Positions 4,983-40,515 of a DNA stretch of 40,515 nucleotides are shown piece after piece. Numbering within the stretch: position 1 is the stretch's first letter; the number at the start of each line of letters is the position of its first letter. The position numbers and the translations under genes are program-made. Origin of the DNA: a virus; IMG/VR virus record IMGVR_UViG_3300022745_000076, positions 1-40,515 of that record; one strand, given 5' to 3'. The notes under the pieces are model-generated. The model saw only the letters and a list, made by a program, of their open reading frames with translations, made no database searches and was not told the DNA's origin.

Positions 4983-5316
4983 CGAGAACACGATGGCCGA
5001 TTCGAGCCAACACAACGATCTGCCGGCGGCAGTGGAGGCGGCAATCGCTGACCTGAAGCCCGAGACCATGAAGCGCGGCGGCCGGTACAACTGGAAGGGC
5101 CAGCCGGAGCGGCTGATCTACCTCGGCCGCGAGCTTGGCTGGCACCAATTCCATTGGTCTGACGACCCGAAGCGGCGCCGCGTGTGGTGCGAGGTGCTGG
5201 ACGCCGATCTGCACATGCTGGAAGAGACGCCCTGCGGTTGCCCTGAGGGCATGTGCGGGAGCAATCCGACCGGGTGCCGCATGGTGTCCGAGGTGGCTGG
5301 GGGTGAGCATGGCTGA
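4975..5316 (+). CDS. Hypothetical protein with Cys-rich C-terminus (113 aa)
   Basis: The ATG at 4975 lies just inside the end of the previous gene (8-base overlap). The product has RYNWKGQPERLIYLGRELG, which looks like a small beta module, and a Cys-rich end (CGCPEGMCGSNPTGC) that could bind zinc or a cluster. The module suggests a small nucleic-acid-binding or adaptor protein, but no family is certain. It directly precedes and overlaps the PP-loop enzyme by 8 bases. Confidence 0.7.
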   Translation: MADENTMADSSQHNDLPAAVEAAIADLKPETMKRGGRYNWKGQPERLIYLGRELGWHQFHWSDDPKRRRVWCEVLDADLHMLEETPCGCPEGMCGSNPTGCRMVSEVAGGEHG

Positions 5317-6076
5317 CCGCATCGTCTGCCAGTTCTCGTGCGGCGCCGCGTCAGCGGTGGCCACGAAACTCGCCATCGCCGCCCACGCTGGAACGCGGGT
5401 AGTGGAGGTCATCAACGCTTTTTTGCTGGAGGAGCACCCGGACAACCGCCGGTTCGCCGCCGACGCCGAAGCGTGGTTCGGGTGCCCAATCCACACGCTG
5501 CGCGACGAGCGCGACGGCGCCAGCACGATCCGGGTGTTTCGGCGCAAGCAGTTCATGATGGGGCCGCGCGGAGCGCCGTGTTCGCGTGCCCTGAAGCGCG
5601 ATCTGCTGGACGGGTGGAAGCAGCCCGGCGACGTGATGGTGTTCGGATACACCGCCGAGGAGTCCGACCGGCTGGAAGACTTCCGCGACCGCAACCCGGA
5701 CCGCCCAGTCATCGCCCCATTGATCGACGCCGGGCTGACCAAAGAAGACTGCAAGGCCATGGTGCAACGGGCAGGGATCGAACTGCCGCTGATGTACCGC
5801 CTCGGCTACGACAACGCCAACTGCATCGGGTGCGTGAAAGGCGGTGAAGGCTACTGGCGTGCAATCCGCGAAGACTTCCCGGAGCAGTTCGAGGCCAACT
5901 GTCTGGTGCAGGACGAGATCGGACCGGGGTCGTGGTTCCTGCGCTACCGAAGCGGCCCGCGGAAGAACGAGCGCTTCCCGCTGCGCGAACTGCCGGCGGG
6001 CGAGCCCAGGCGCAACGAGGCACTGCCGTCGTGCAGCTTCTTCTGTGAGATGGCCGAACAGGAATACAGCGCATGA
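5309..6076 (+). CDS. PAPS-reductase-like PP-loop protein
   Basis: A 255-residue protein of the phage phosphoadenosine-phosphosulfate-reductase-like group. The PP-loop at residues 9-16 reads FSCGAASA instead of the usual SGGKDS, a variant I associate with phage members. Further conserved features are VFGYTAEESDR (about 111-121), a Cys-x2-Cys with CIGCVKGGEGYW (172-183), and Cys 91 and Cys 242/246. True PAPS reductase chemistry is unlikely: there is no sulfate pathway nearby. PP-loop ATPases adenylate or thiolate substrates; QueC, which makes preQ0, and DndC, which acts in DNA phosphorothioation, belong to the same broader fold. Beside the radical SAM, TGT-like and transporter genes it is a candidate for base modification (inference). 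Confidence 0.8.
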   Translation: MADRIVCQFSCGAASAVATKLAIAAHAGTRVVEVINAFLLEEHPDNRRFAADAEAWFGCPIHTLRDERDGASTIRVFRRKQFMMGPRGAPCSRALKRDLLDGWKQPGDVMVFGYTAEESDRLEDFRDRNPDRPVIAPLIDAGLTKEDCKAMVQRAGIELPLMYRLGYDNANCIGCVKGGEGYWRAIREDFPEQFEANCLVQDEIGPGSWFLRYRSGPRKNERFPLRELPAGEPRRNEALPSCSFFCEMAEQEYSA

Positions 6077-6114
6077 CCCGCCGCACCCCCACCGGAGCCC
6101 CCGACCATGGTTGA
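6073..6114 (+). CDS. Possible 13-aa linking ORF
   Basis: A very short frame whose ATG overlaps the PP-loop gene stop (ATGA at 6073-6076) and whose stop overlaps the next gene's first codons (start 6107). It may simply carry terminating ribosomes to the next start. The protein product itself is doubtful. Confidence 0.25.
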   Translation: MTRRTPTGAPDHG

Positions 6115-6346
6115 CCCTCTGACCGTTGCCGACGTGCGCCGTGCCGCGTTTGAACTGTGCGAGTTCTTCGAGGACGTGCGCGACCTGCCGAACGACTCGC
6201 GCGATGTGGAGCGCTTCAAGGCCGGCCAGCGCTACGCCGCCAAGCGCATCCGCCAGGGCCTCGGGACGTGGCTCACCGACGAAGAGAACAAGCGCAGCGC
6301 CGAGCGCCGGGCCGAGAAAGAGCGCCTGCTGGGAGGCGTCCTGTGA
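6107..6346 (+). CDS. Hypothetical protein (79 aa)
   Basis: The product is mostly helical and charged: residues 10-30 (RRAAFELCEFFEDVRDLP) and 38-79, which are rich in Arg, Lys and Glu (RFKAGQRYAAKRIRQGL). No membrane helix or metal site is visible. It sits between the PP-loop and radical SAM genes and overlaps the next start by one base (TGATG). It could be a small partner protein of the cluster, but nothing shows this directly. Confidence 0.65.
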   Translation: MVDPLTVADVRRAAFELCEFFEDVRDLPNDSRDVERFKAGQRYAAKRIRQGLGTWLTDEENKRSAERRAEKERLLGGVL

Positions 6347-6567
6347 TGCCTGACCTCCTGCAAGACCGCGCCCTGTCGCGCCGCCCTCGCGCCTGGATGC
6401 GCCGGTGGTATTTCGACGGAGAGACGCCGCACAAAGAACGCAACGCACAAGGGCGGATTGCATGGCCTACAAAATTCAAGTTTTTGCCCGTTACGCCGCA
6501 TCGGGTTTTGTCCGACGACGTGCCCTTGTATGCAGGCGACGACGCGCGCGACTTGGCCGCGCCATGA
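6346..6567 (+). CDS. Small phage protein (73 aa)
   Basis: The ATG at 6346 overlaps the preceding TGA. The product has WMRRWYFDGETPHKE followed by GRIAWPTKFKFLPVT and DDVPLY, a pattern seen in small conserved phage proteins of unknown function. The region 6430-6560 is less GC-rich at third positions than its neighbours. The ATGA overlap into a 23-codon frame continues the coupled series. Confidence 0.6.
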   Translation: MPDLLQDRALSRRPRAWMRRWYFDGETPHKERNAQGRIAWPTKFKFLPVTPHRVLSDDVPLYAGDDARDLAAP

Positions 6568-6635
6568 CCAACCGCGCCCTGTCGCGCTGGCTGCGTGCGC
6601 GCTGTATCTGCTGGCACTCTTGGGGCCGCGAATGA
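6564..6635 (+). CDS. Possible 23-aa linking ORF
   Basis: Its ATG overlaps the previous stop and its stop overlaps the radical SAM start, both as ATGA. The peptide (MTNRALSRWLRARCIC...) is basic and Trp/Cys-rich. It may act mainly by keeping ribosomes on the message, but a real micropeptide is possible. Confidence 0.35.
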   Translation: MTNRALSRWLRARCICWHSWGRE

Positions 6636-7537
6636 CGTGGTCTGGCGGGTTCGCAGAATGGACCGAAGGCGACATCGCCTATCTGTCCGTCGCGTTCACA
6701 TGGCTGCTGGACAAGGCCTATGCGCGCGCCCTGTGGTATCGGGCGCTGGGGTATCGCGTGCGTGCAGGCGGGCCGGCGCTGTTCCTGGTAAAGATGCGGC
6801 ATGAACTGTCCGACGTTGCCGAGCTTGGCGGCGATGCGCCGGACGCGATCGCGCACCACAACCCGCAGGCCACCATCGCCAGCCGGGGCTGTCCTGTCGG
6901 GTGCCACTTCTGCATCGTGCCGGCGATGGAAGGCCGAGAGTTCACGCTGCTGCCGGATTTCCCGGTGCGGCCGGTCCTGTGTGACAACAATCTGAGCGCC
7001 CTACCGGCCGACTACCAGAAGCACATCATCGACCGCTACCGCGCAGAGGGTGTGCCGTTGCTGGATGCGAATAGCGGTTTTGAGCCCGCCACCTTCACGC
7101 CCGACGTCTATGCGCGTTGGGCGCCATTGCTGAACGCCGGCCGCGGGCCGTGGCGCTTTGCGTTGGACGAGACGCACGAACTGCCCGACGTGCTCCGCGT
7201 GATGCGGATGCTGCACGCCGAGCCCGCCAAGCGAAAGCGGGTTTATGTGCTGATCGGGAATGAGCCGTTCGCCAAGTGCATGGCGCGCATCCAAGCCGTG
7301 ATCGACGGCGGGTGTGAGCCTCACGTCCAACCGCTGATGAAGCTCAATGCGCTGCACCGGGAACCTTGGGTGCGGCACGACTGGACGGCACAGAAGCTGC
7401 GCGACGTGGCGCGCTGGGCCAATGGGTGGGTCTGGAAAAAAGCCCCGTTTACCGAGTACGACCGCAGCATGAGCAAGAGCCGCGCCACCCCGGTATACGA
7501 CGATCAACAAGGCCTGTTTGCCGAGGCAACACCATGA
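6632..7537 (+). CDS. Radical SAM enzyme
   Basis: A 301-residue protein with a radical SAM cluster motif at residues 87-94: Cys87-x3-Cys91-x2-Cys94 within ASRGCPVGCHFCIVPAMEG. This binds a [4Fe-4S] cluster and S-adenosylmethionine to make a 5'-deoxyadenosyl radical. The flanking SRGCP...FC.VP...G resembles MiaB-like and B12-associated radical SAM enzymes more than QueE. Downstream there are barrel-like stretches (VLCDNNLSALP, GVPLLDANSGFEP, RFALDETHEL, VYVLIGNEP). There is no second Cys cluster or TRAM domain, so it is not a normal MiaB. Next to a TGT-like enzyme and a deazaguanine-type transporter, modification of a nucleobase is the leading idea (inference). Confidence 0.88.
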   Translation: MTWSGGFAEWTEGDIAYLSVAFTWLLDKAYARALWYRALGYRVRAGGPALFLVKMRHELSDVAELGGDAPDAIAHHNPQATIASRGCPVGCHFCIVPAMEGREFTLLPDFPVRPVLCDNNLSALPADYQKHIIDRYRAEGVPLLDANSGFEPATFTPDVYARWAPLLNAGRGPWRFALDETHELPDVLRVMRMLHAEPAKRKRVYVLIGNEPFAKCMARIQAVIDGGCEPHVQPLMKLNALHREPWVRHDWTAQKLRDVARWANGWVWKKAPFTEYDRSMSKSRATPVYDDQQGLFAEATP

Positions 7538-7581
7538 CCCACTGCAATCGCTGGCGTGGGCTGGCGGGGAGCAAGACGTGA
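7534..7581 (+). CDS. Possible 15-aa linking ORF
   Basis: The ATG overlaps the radical SAM stop (7534-7537) and the stop overlaps the GTG start of the TGT-like gene (GTGA at 7578-7581). It is only 15 codons, so a functional peptide is unlikely; a ribosome relay between two genes of the same cluster is plausible. Confidence 0.3.
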   Translation: MTHCNRWRGLAGSKT

Positions 7582-8327
7582 TCCATTACCACGGCCTGCC
7601 CATCACCCCGGCATCAGCAGCTGTGCGCGCGGTTGATGCCGGACACGCCTTCGTGAGCTTCGCGCATTCCGATCAGTTGGGCGTCGCCGCTGAAGTGTGC
7701 CAGTCGTTTGCGGTGGACAACGGCGCGTTTTCGGCGTGGAAGAAAGGCGAGCCAGTGCAGGACTGGCGCGGCTTCTATGAGTGGGCCTCCTCCTGCAAAC
7801 GAATCCCGTCGTGCGACTTTGCCGTCGTGCCTGACGTGATCGACGGCGGCGAGTCCGACAACGACGCGCTGTTGACCGAGTGGCCATTGCCGCGTTGGTT
7901 TGGCGCCCCGGTGTGGCATATGCACGAAAGCCTGGATCGCCTTGAGCGGCTGGCAAGCGCTTGGCCGCGAGTATGCATCGGCAGTTCTGGCGAGTTCGCC
8001 ACCATTGGCACGGCCGCATGGTGGGGCCAGATTGCACGGGCTATGCGCGTGGTCTGCAACGACGACGGCGAGCCGCTGGTGAAGTTGCACGGGCTGCGGA
8101 TGTTGAACCCCGAGGTGTTTACTCGCCTGCCGTTCAGCAGCGCCGACAGCACCAACATCGGCCGCAATATCGGCATTGACCAGACATGGCGAGGCAACTA
8201 CATGCCGCCCAACAAAGACACCCGCGCCGCAGTCATGCGCGCCCGGATCGAATCGCAGAACGCACCGACGCGATGGGCGTTCAACGTGCCAGAGTTTCAA
8301 CCCGCAGACCAAGGAAGCCTGCTATGA
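7578..8327 (+). CDS. TGT/DpdA-like transglycosylase (DUF7221-type)
   Basis: A 249-residue protein starting at GTG 7578 behind GGGGAG (7565-7570). Motifs are AVDNGAFSAW (45-54), VPDVIDGGESDN (84-95), PVWHMHESLDRL (111-122), CIGSSGEF (133-140), GLRMLNPEVFTR (172-183) and SSADSTN (187-193). This is the pattern I know from phage proteins annotated as queuine-tRNA-ribosyltransferase-like. Those proteins belong to the TGT superfamily, which exchanges guanine for a 7-deazaguanine. In DpdA the target is DNA rather than tRNA. Asp86 and Asp190 are candidate catalytic residues; the zinc site of bacterial TGT was not seen. The radical SAM gene lies upstream and the transporter directly downstream, overlapping by ATGA. 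The DNA-target assignment is inferred. Confidence 0.75.
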   Translation: MIHYHGLPITPASAAVRAVDAGHAFVSFAHSDQLGVAAEVCQSFAVDNGAFSAWKKGEPVQDWRGFYEWASSCKRIPSCDFAVVPDVIDGGESDNDALLTEWPLPRWFGAPVWHMHESLDRLERLASAWPRVCIGSSGEFATIGTAAWWGQIARAMRVVCNDDGEPLVKLHGLRMLNPEVFTRLPFSSADSTNIGRNIGIDQTWRGNYMPPNKDTRAAVMRARIESQNAPTRWAFNVPEFQPADQGSLL

Positions 8328-8809
8328 CGCTGACCATTGCCGCCATGATCTATGCCGCCACGCTGACGCTGGCGAACTTGAGCATTGCCTACTTCGGCCC
8401 CGCGTCGATTCCGGTCAATGCTTTTGTGCTGATCGGCCTAGACTTGGCATTGCGGAACTGGCTTGCGCTCAAGATGAGCGCGCGTCAGATGCTGGCACTG
8501 ATCGCCGCCGCTGCGGCCATGAGTTGGGCGCTGAACCCGGCTAGCGGTCGGATTGCTGCGGCATCGTTCGCGGCTTTCGCGCTGTCGGCGTTGGCAGATT
8601 GGGCAGCCTTCCGGCTGGCGCGTGGCGCATGGTTGAAGCGCTGCCTCGGAGGCGTAACGATTGGCGCTGCGGTGGACTCGTTGGCGTTCCCTCTGCTGGC
8701 TGGGTTCTCGCTGGCATATGCGCCGGGGCTGTTTGCCGCGAAGGTGGCCGGCGGCGCTGTGTGGGCGTGGGCGCTGTCGCGCGTCGTGAGGGCCGAAGGG
8801 AGCGCCTGA
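8324..8809 (+). CDS. VUT/YhhQ-like queuosine-precursor transporter
   Basis: A 161-residue, almost wholly hydrophobic protein with about five or six membrane helices. Family marks are TLTLANLSIAYFGP near residue 14, IPVNAFVLIGLDLALRN (28-44), ASFAAFALSALADW (about 79-92) and VTIGAAVDSLAFP (about 111-123). These match the VUT family, whose member YhhQ imports the 7-deazaguanine preQ0 (and preQ1). Phage members are shorter than the roughly 220-residue bacterial YhhQ. It overlaps the TGT-like gene, which strongly suggests that the transporter feeds that enzyme. Expression would put it in the host inner membrane. Confidence 0.85.
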   Translation: MTLTIAAMIYAATLTLANLSIAYFGPASIPVNAFVLIGLDLALRNWLALKMSARQMLALIAAAAAMSWALNPASGRIAAASFAAFALSALADWAAFRLARGAWLKRCLGGVTIGAAVDSLAFPLLAGFSLAYAPGLFAAKVAGGAVWAWALSRVVRAEGSA

Positions 8810-9079: not shown

Positions 9080-9601
9080 ATGCCGACCCTGACCCTCACC
9101 CCGCGCCGCGTCCGATTCAACATCGACGAGGCCAGCGCAGCGGCCGACGCCTGGGGCTTCAACTGCGGCCCCGGCGCACTCTGCGCCGTTCTCGACCTGA
9201 CGCCCGACGAGCTGCGGCCGAAGCTGGGCGACTTCGAGACGAAGGGCTACACGAACCCGACGCTGATGGCCTCCGTTCTGCGCGCGCACGGTGCGCGGCA
9301 CCGCGAGGTCTATCGCAGGGACGCTCCGGGCGCTCGGTGCCGCCTTCGGTTCGGGCTGATGCGGGTTCAATGGGCTGGCCCGTGGACGCGGCCGGGAGTG
9401 CCGATGGCGGCCCGCTACCGGCAGACGCATTGGGTGGCGATGGCCGGGGATCAGGTCTTCGACATCAATGCCATCTGCGTCGGCGGTTGGATCGACCGCG
9501 ACGAGTGGGAGATGCGGCTGGTGCCGTGGCTGATCCGCGAGGCGTGCCCGAAAGGGTCGGGCGAGTGGCGGCCTACGCACGGGCGGGAAGTGGAGCGGTA
9601 G
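9080..9601 (+). CDS. Cysteine-peptidase-like (C39-type) protein
   Basis: A 173-residue protein with FNCGPGALCAVLDL (Cys29), THWVAM (His117) and QVFDINA (Asp128), a Cys-His-Asp arrangement like papain-fold C39 peptidases. The length and the short N-terminal extension would suit a stand-alone domain. No signal peptide or zinc site is visible. It could process a protein, act as an amidase, or be catalytically unused. It is the nearest non-membrane gene to the lysis cassette on the opposite strand, so a cell-wall role was considered, but a simple endolysin is not supported. Confidence 0.6.
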   Translation: MPTLTLTPRRVRFNIDEASAAADAWGFNCGPGALCAVLDLTPDELRPKLGDFETKGYTNPTLMASVLRAHGARHREVYRRDAPGARCRLRFGLMRVQWAGPWTRPGVPMAARYRQTHWVAMAGDQVFDINAICVGGWIDRDEWEMRLVPWLIREACPKGSGEWRPTHGREVER

Positions 9602-40205: not shown

Positions 40206-40515
40206 GTGCCGACGATCACGATTCGCAACCGCTGGACCGATGCCGTGCTGTACACGCACGAGACCACGGTGGAGCGCCAAGCGTCTGGGCTGGCAACGCG
40301 GGATGCGCTAGAAGCGGCGGTGAGGTCGCGCGCCAACCTCTCGGGCGCCAACCTCTCGTGCGCCTACCTCTCGTGCGCCAACCTCTCGGGCGCCAACCTC
40401 TCGTGCGCCAACCTCTCGTGCGCCAACCTCTCGGGCGCCAACCTCTCGTGCGCCAACCTCTCGTGCGCCTACCTCTCGTGCGCCAACCTCTCGGGCGCCT
40501 ACGTCTCGGGCGCCA
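40206..40515 (+). CDS. Pentapeptide-repeat protein, N-terminal part
   Basis: It starts at GTG 40206 behind GGGGAG (40193-40198); an ATG at 40199 is in the wrong frame and ends soon. The first 42 residues ([20 protein letters not shown]...) are the N-terminal domain also found on other phage pentapeptide proteins, followed by the repeat array. The frame runs off the window end and continues at base 1 once the 139-base overlap is removed. The N-terminal domain plus pentapeptides plus the 88-residue end give about 215 residues. Confidence 0.9.
40332..40515 (+). repeat. 15-bp tandem coding repeat, 12 units plus 4 bases
   Basis: This is the same unit as at 1-210, and its last nine units duplicate the window start. 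After merging the ends the array has 17 units. The true number may be higher, because short-read assemblies collapse perfect tandem repeats. Confidence 0.95.
40377..40515. repeat. Right copy of 139-bp terminal redundancy
   Basis: This is the partner of bases 1-139. The single mismatch (G40503) lies 12 bases from the contig end, where assembly errors are common. Removing one copy gives a unique length of 40,376 bp. Confidence 0.85.

Follow-up and report, generated by a model that had tools for sequence, protein, structure and literature searches.

We identified, in a 40.5-kb virus record of IMG/VR that was analysed at its full length (the window), two overlapping genes that on the evidence of their sequences quite likely make up a minimal cassette for salvaging a 7-deazaguanine and modifying DNA with it. 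The first (7578-8327, plus strand) encodes a 249-amino acid (aa) protein, probably a member of the phage DpdA family and predicted to exchange guanine for 7-deazaguanine in DNA, and the second (8324-8809, plus strand) encodes a 161-aa Vut_1/YhhQ-type (VUT) protein that is preQ0-transporter-like and probably imports a 7-deazaguanine base. The transporter would take up this base, most likely preQ0 or preQ1, topping up the host-made pool during infection, the DpdA-type enzyme would swap guanines of the phage DNA for the imported base by a TGT-like exchange via D47 and D190, and the modified DNA would probably blunt host nucleases. We infer the substrate and direction of transport, DNA rather than tRNA as the target, the final base and the protective role.

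Gene layout and the two proteins of the predicted cassette

The start and end of the window fall within the same pentapeptide-repeat frame (1-477 and 40206-40515; [10 protein letters not shown] units), which suggests a circular genome opened inside this repeat. Recombination genes (exonuclease family, Gam, HNH and Orf/NinB) occupy its left part and are followed by genes for a PP-loop (PAPS-reductase-like) protein (5309-6076), a radical SAM protein (6632-7537), the DpdA-like protein and the transporter, all on the plus strand, with the structural genes on the opposite strand. Codon-usage gene calling recovered all four, trimming the start of the DpdA-like gene, whose GTG start is backed by close relatives beginning MIHYHGLP. 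The first-pass annotation had described a coupled operon of four genes, and each of its frames and overlaps can be read from the sequence: ATGA at 7534-7537 joins the radical SAM stop to a 15-codon frame (7534-7581, plus strand), GTGA at 7578-7581 joins that frame to the DpdA-like gene, and ATGA at 8324-8327 forms a 4-base overlap between the DpdA stop and the VUT gene. The coupling holds for these genes but does not extend to the PP-loop gene, which is separated from the radical SAM gene by two small genes (6107-6346 and 6349-6567) and is therefore not directly coupled to it. The 15-codon frame is a local feature; in 15 relatives no such frame precedes DpdA, and the idea of a conserved leader was dropped for this reason. 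Downstream of the transporter a 173-aa protein (9080-9601; NCGPGALCA...THWVAM...DIN) resembles a Cys-His-Asn cysteine protease or transglutaminase and has no match among Pfam or PHROG profiles.

The identity of the 249-aa protein as TGT/DpdA-like is borne out by its match to phrog_887 'queuine tRNA-ribosyltransferase' (4.6e-72) and by its phage relatives. A tblastn search returned matches in 104 phage records including Pantoea phage MED16, whose gp38 is 39.4% identical across 93% of the query length. A search started from a related phage protein likewise gave 104 records, Salmonella phage 7-11 among them, with organism counts that match those of the first search, and the family profile recovers the 7-11 protein. 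The protein can be aligned with those of MED16 and HK106 in a 40-member alignment in which D47 (DNGAF), D86 and D190 (SADSTN) are invariant. By motif order (DNGAF/SADSTN against DSGGF/FDCVLPTR of TGT) D47 and D190 would be the TGT catalytic pair. The sequence blocks listed in the first-pass annotation are all present, VPDVIDGG and SADSTN in the 249-aa protein and the CX3CX2C motif (GCPVGCHFC) in the radical SAM protein.

The AlphaFold model of the 249-aa protein is a confident barrel (pLDDT 86) which in Foldseek matches viral queuine-transglycosylases with E down to 1e-8. Thirty matches have E ≤ 0.001, one of them a protein from phage nt-1, and the sole named function among them is queuine tRNA-ribosyltransferase, the rest being uncharacterised or unnamed. 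Against the PDB, the archaeosine TGT (arcTGT) 1j2b ranks second (E 9e-3) amid generic TIM barrels, a match that is weak alone. Similarity to the TGT fold, proposed earlier as the test of this assignment, is thus present in the predicted structure. Profile searches, likewise proposed, gave a divided result: phrog_887 identified the family, but the Pfam TGT profile (PF01702) matched none of the 40 members, a PDB profile search with the family returned no match and comparison of the family profile with 8 TGTs yielded no link, so that the connection to TGT is drawn from fold and family. No conserved Cys/His set corresponding to the C-terminal TGT zinc motif (CxCx2C...H) occurs in the 40-member alignment, which with the missing Pfam match indicates that the protein is not a canonical TGT.

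The 161-aa protein matches phrog_4899, a family of no assigned function (2.2e-25), and Vut_1 (7.4e-5), and its hydropathy is consistent with several transmembrane helices. Its own scores fall under the curated cut-offs of the Vut_1 and YhhQ models and so sequence does not fix the transport substrate. All 25 aligned relatives match Vut_1 (best 1.8e-13), 23 of the 25 match the YhhQ model NF008406 and 20 match TIGR00697, in keeping with the VUT/YhhQ-like identity first given to it. phrog_4899 thereby gains a predicted function, 7-deazaguanine uptake.

Linkage of DpdA with transporters and supply of the precursor

DpdA and VUT genes form a recurrent, conserved two-gene cassette in dozens of phages. 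Among 90 DpdA loci, comprising viral and bacterial contigs with adequate flanking sequence, 35 have a VUT gene within about 1.1 kb of DpdA, and in the reverse search DpdA adjoins the transporter in 9 of 11 transporter loci; the survey of gene co-occurrence suggested at the outset thus supports the pairing. Both gene orders are found, DpdA-VUT as in the window and VUT-DpdA in, among others, isolates of the Drexlerviridae, and the pair is also present in the isolates Lg3, LHE71, Phleasolo, PEAT2, Tbat1_6, Phc, RCIP0319 and AB3P2; of these, LHE71 is an Escherichia phage with E. coli K-12 as its recorded host. On a DpdA tree of 65 rows, obtained by a short search, VUT adjacency changes at least 15 times. 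One contig (L047, 2559-5497) carries two tandem DpdA-VUT pairs.

Profile searches of the whole window record found no FolE (PF01227), QueD/PTPS (PF01242) or QueC (PF06508), the PP-loop protein included, and a single seed-derived profile found no QueE, in agreement with the absence of synthesis genes noted from the letters. The VUT-bearing records searched likewise gave no match to FolE, PTPS or QueC, with two contigs that carry QueD as the positive controls. QueD/PTPS occurs near DpdA in 16 of the 90 loci, but in 0/35 with VUT compared with 16/55 without it (Fisher p 1.6e-4, uncorrected for relatedness of the loci). QueE was found near DpdA once among the 90. The QueD/PTPS-like gene lies directly upstream or downstream of DpdA in L018, L044, L031-L040, L050, L194, L204 and L211, in the order QueD-DpdA-QueE in L050. 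In L039 and L040 the order is QueD-DpdA-PP-loop, which suggests that the PP-loop protein could replace QueC there.

An undescribed protein of about 80 aa (CPxN...VE...GxHExIAD...FGG...HHGVxIxT) was present near DpdA in 42 of the 90 loci, 13 of these also with VUT. It lies beside DpdA, often overlapping it, at L199:7756-8001, L020:1830-2066 and about 50 other loci, and matches no Pfam family. In comparison with QueF its active-site Cys and Glu align (hhalign E 0.0015, probability 16%) and the QueF Asp is missing, making it a candidate QueF-like deazaguanine enzyme. These alternative occupants of the slot beside DpdA come from 7-deazaguanine metabolism, which favours precursor supply as the role of the slot.

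Of 22 hosts carrying related prophages, 20 gave a QueC-family match over the cut-off, a strong one in 19, and all 8 prophage hosts sampled for QueF and TGT carry both. Uptake would therefore not be essential in those 20, and as the sampled hosts mostly make preQ0 it would add to the supply or compete with host use. The idea that the transporter compensates for preQ0-deficient hosts is for the same reason unsupported in general; an actinobacterial host lacking a convincing QueC does carry a DpdA+VUT locus (L209).

The abundance of QueC among hosts, together with the broad definition of Vut_1, the scores under the cut-offs and the dpdA genes of 7-11 and MED16, which have no adjoining transporter, could also be accommodated if DpdA acts as predicted on a precursor made entirely by the host and the VUT protein carries another purine or vitamin-like solute. 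We regard this as unlikely, given the recurrent adjacency to DpdA in both gene orders, the mutual exclusion with QueD and the fact that the best curated matches of the transporter are preQ0/preQ1 transporters.

A reading in which the phage TGT and a transporter of Q precursors adjust tRNA during infection, rather than modify DNA, appears quite unlikely. It would agree with the PHROG and GenBank name, queuine tRNA-ribosyltransferase, and with TGT-QPTR fusions of bacteria, which act for tRNA (PMC11130926). Against it, virion DNA of 7-11 and MED16 carries dADG with no other pathway gene in these phages (PMC6884629, PMC8306585), the DpdA protein lacks the TGT zinc motif and the hosts sampled have a complete TGT of their own. 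It is the membership of the same DpdA family as 7-11 and MED16, whose DNA carries dADG, that leads us to read the cassette as one of DNA modification. Uptake of a deazaguanine followed by insertion into DNA was also the core of the earlier proposal, and this part, with the base taken up or supplied by the host, is well supported by the conserved DpdA-VUT pair, the relatives with dADG DNA and the synthesis genes not found.

Radical SAM and PP-loop neighbours

The radical SAM gene, its start best set at ATG 6632, encodes a protein matching phrog_9298 (2.8e-9) and Pfam Radical_SAM (0.012), the latter spanning the cysteine motif. No QueE-like match (seed-based profile) and no PDB profile match were obtained. 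Its model (pLDDT 69) gives weak and mixed Foldseek matches, CysS 9n1c and AprD4 amid TIM barrels; the N-terminal half is Rossmann-like, and radical SAM families of the B12 type are among the best of the weak matches. Eleven close viral relatives (L002-L012; 64-75% identity) lie in unrelated phage contigs, none lies near DpdA (0/11) and no partner gene is conserved among them. Relatives were likewise absent from the loci retrieved with the DpdA and transporter queries and from the host-genome loci. We therefore class the protein as an orphan of the radical SAM class.

The PP-loop protein matches the PAPS reductase family phrog_424 (1.5e-48), and none of its 80 close relatives lies within 6 kb of DpdA. 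One relative in Pseudomonas phage vB_Pae_U5 (PP003917.1, 34261-35061; L234) is annotated 'integrase', probably in error. The PP-loop protein found directly after DpdA and beside QueD in L039 and L040 is of a different type from that of the window, and a QueC-like role is possible for some PP-loop proteins.

The first-pass annotation had gone further in suggesting that the radical SAM and PP-loop proteins may add another modification, perhaps one not yet described; four genes would then make up the pathway, and the salvaged deazaguanine would be turned into a further base. The four genes share a strand and are tightly spaced, the radical SAM stop is linked to DpdA via the 15-codon frame, deazaguanine pathways include a radical SAM enzyme, QueE, and a PP-loop enzyme, QueC, and other PP-loop proteins adjoin DpdA in L039, L040 and L027. 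With relatives of both proteins unlinked to DpdA, no QueE-like match and two genes between the PP-loop and radical SAM genes, such a four-gene pathway is very unlikely; the additional modification is unsupported and was dropped. Both genes are probably independent early-region cargo outside the cassette, and it is most improbable that the radical SAM protein acts further on the inserted deazaguanine and so gives this phage, which would make no precursor itself, a novel base in its DNA.

Significance and comparison with known systems

Phage DpdA and phages with dpdA only were already known, as were phage YhhQ homologs, reported to show no correlation with particular groups of phages (PMC6884629), and one phage transporter in a synthesis cluster (PMC6266253). 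Our literature search, incomplete for key recent work, found no earlier report of a stand-alone DpdA-transporter cassette. We read the cassette as a genuine salvage variant of the way in which phages modify their DNA with 7-deazaguanines and, as the DpdA-VUT pair recurs in dozens of phages, some viruses may import the base for their DNA armour rather than make it. If so, phages would carry interchangeable supply modules (VUT, QueD or the QueF-like protein) around one insertion enzyme, and phage DNA modification and nuclease resistance would hinge on deazaguanines in the surroundings.

The closest counterparts are Salmonella phage 7-11 and Pantoea phage MED16, in which dpdA is the only pathway gene, dADG was detected in virion DNA by mass spectrometry and the source of the precursor, host or environment, was left open (PMC6884629, PMC8306585). 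They share with the window the DpdA family and the lack of synthesis genes but have no transporter adjoining dpdA; a transporter-DpdA cassette without FolE, QueD and QueC offers a candidate answer to the question of precursor source in such phages. Pantoea phage Vid5 has, within a que-tgt cluster, a Vut_1-superfamily protein predicted to transport preQ0/preQ1, thus resembling the window in both transporter and TGT-like gene, but it carries three of the four preQ0 synthesis genes (PMC6266253), and the MED16 paper made a separate DpdA profile for it. Phages 9g, nt-1 and CAjan (DpdA1/DpdA2, full pathways) likewise insert 7-deazaguanines into DNA by a transglycosylase but encode preQ0 synthesis genes (PMC6884629), whereas FolE, QueD and QueC were not found in the window by profile search. 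The bacterial YhhQ/QPTR transporters (COG1738) and TGT-QPTR fusions show the same transporter family in functional pairing with a transglycosylase (PMC11130926); the transporter of the window differs in being short (161 aa), in scoring under the curated cut-offs and in having as its partner a predicted DNA enzyme.
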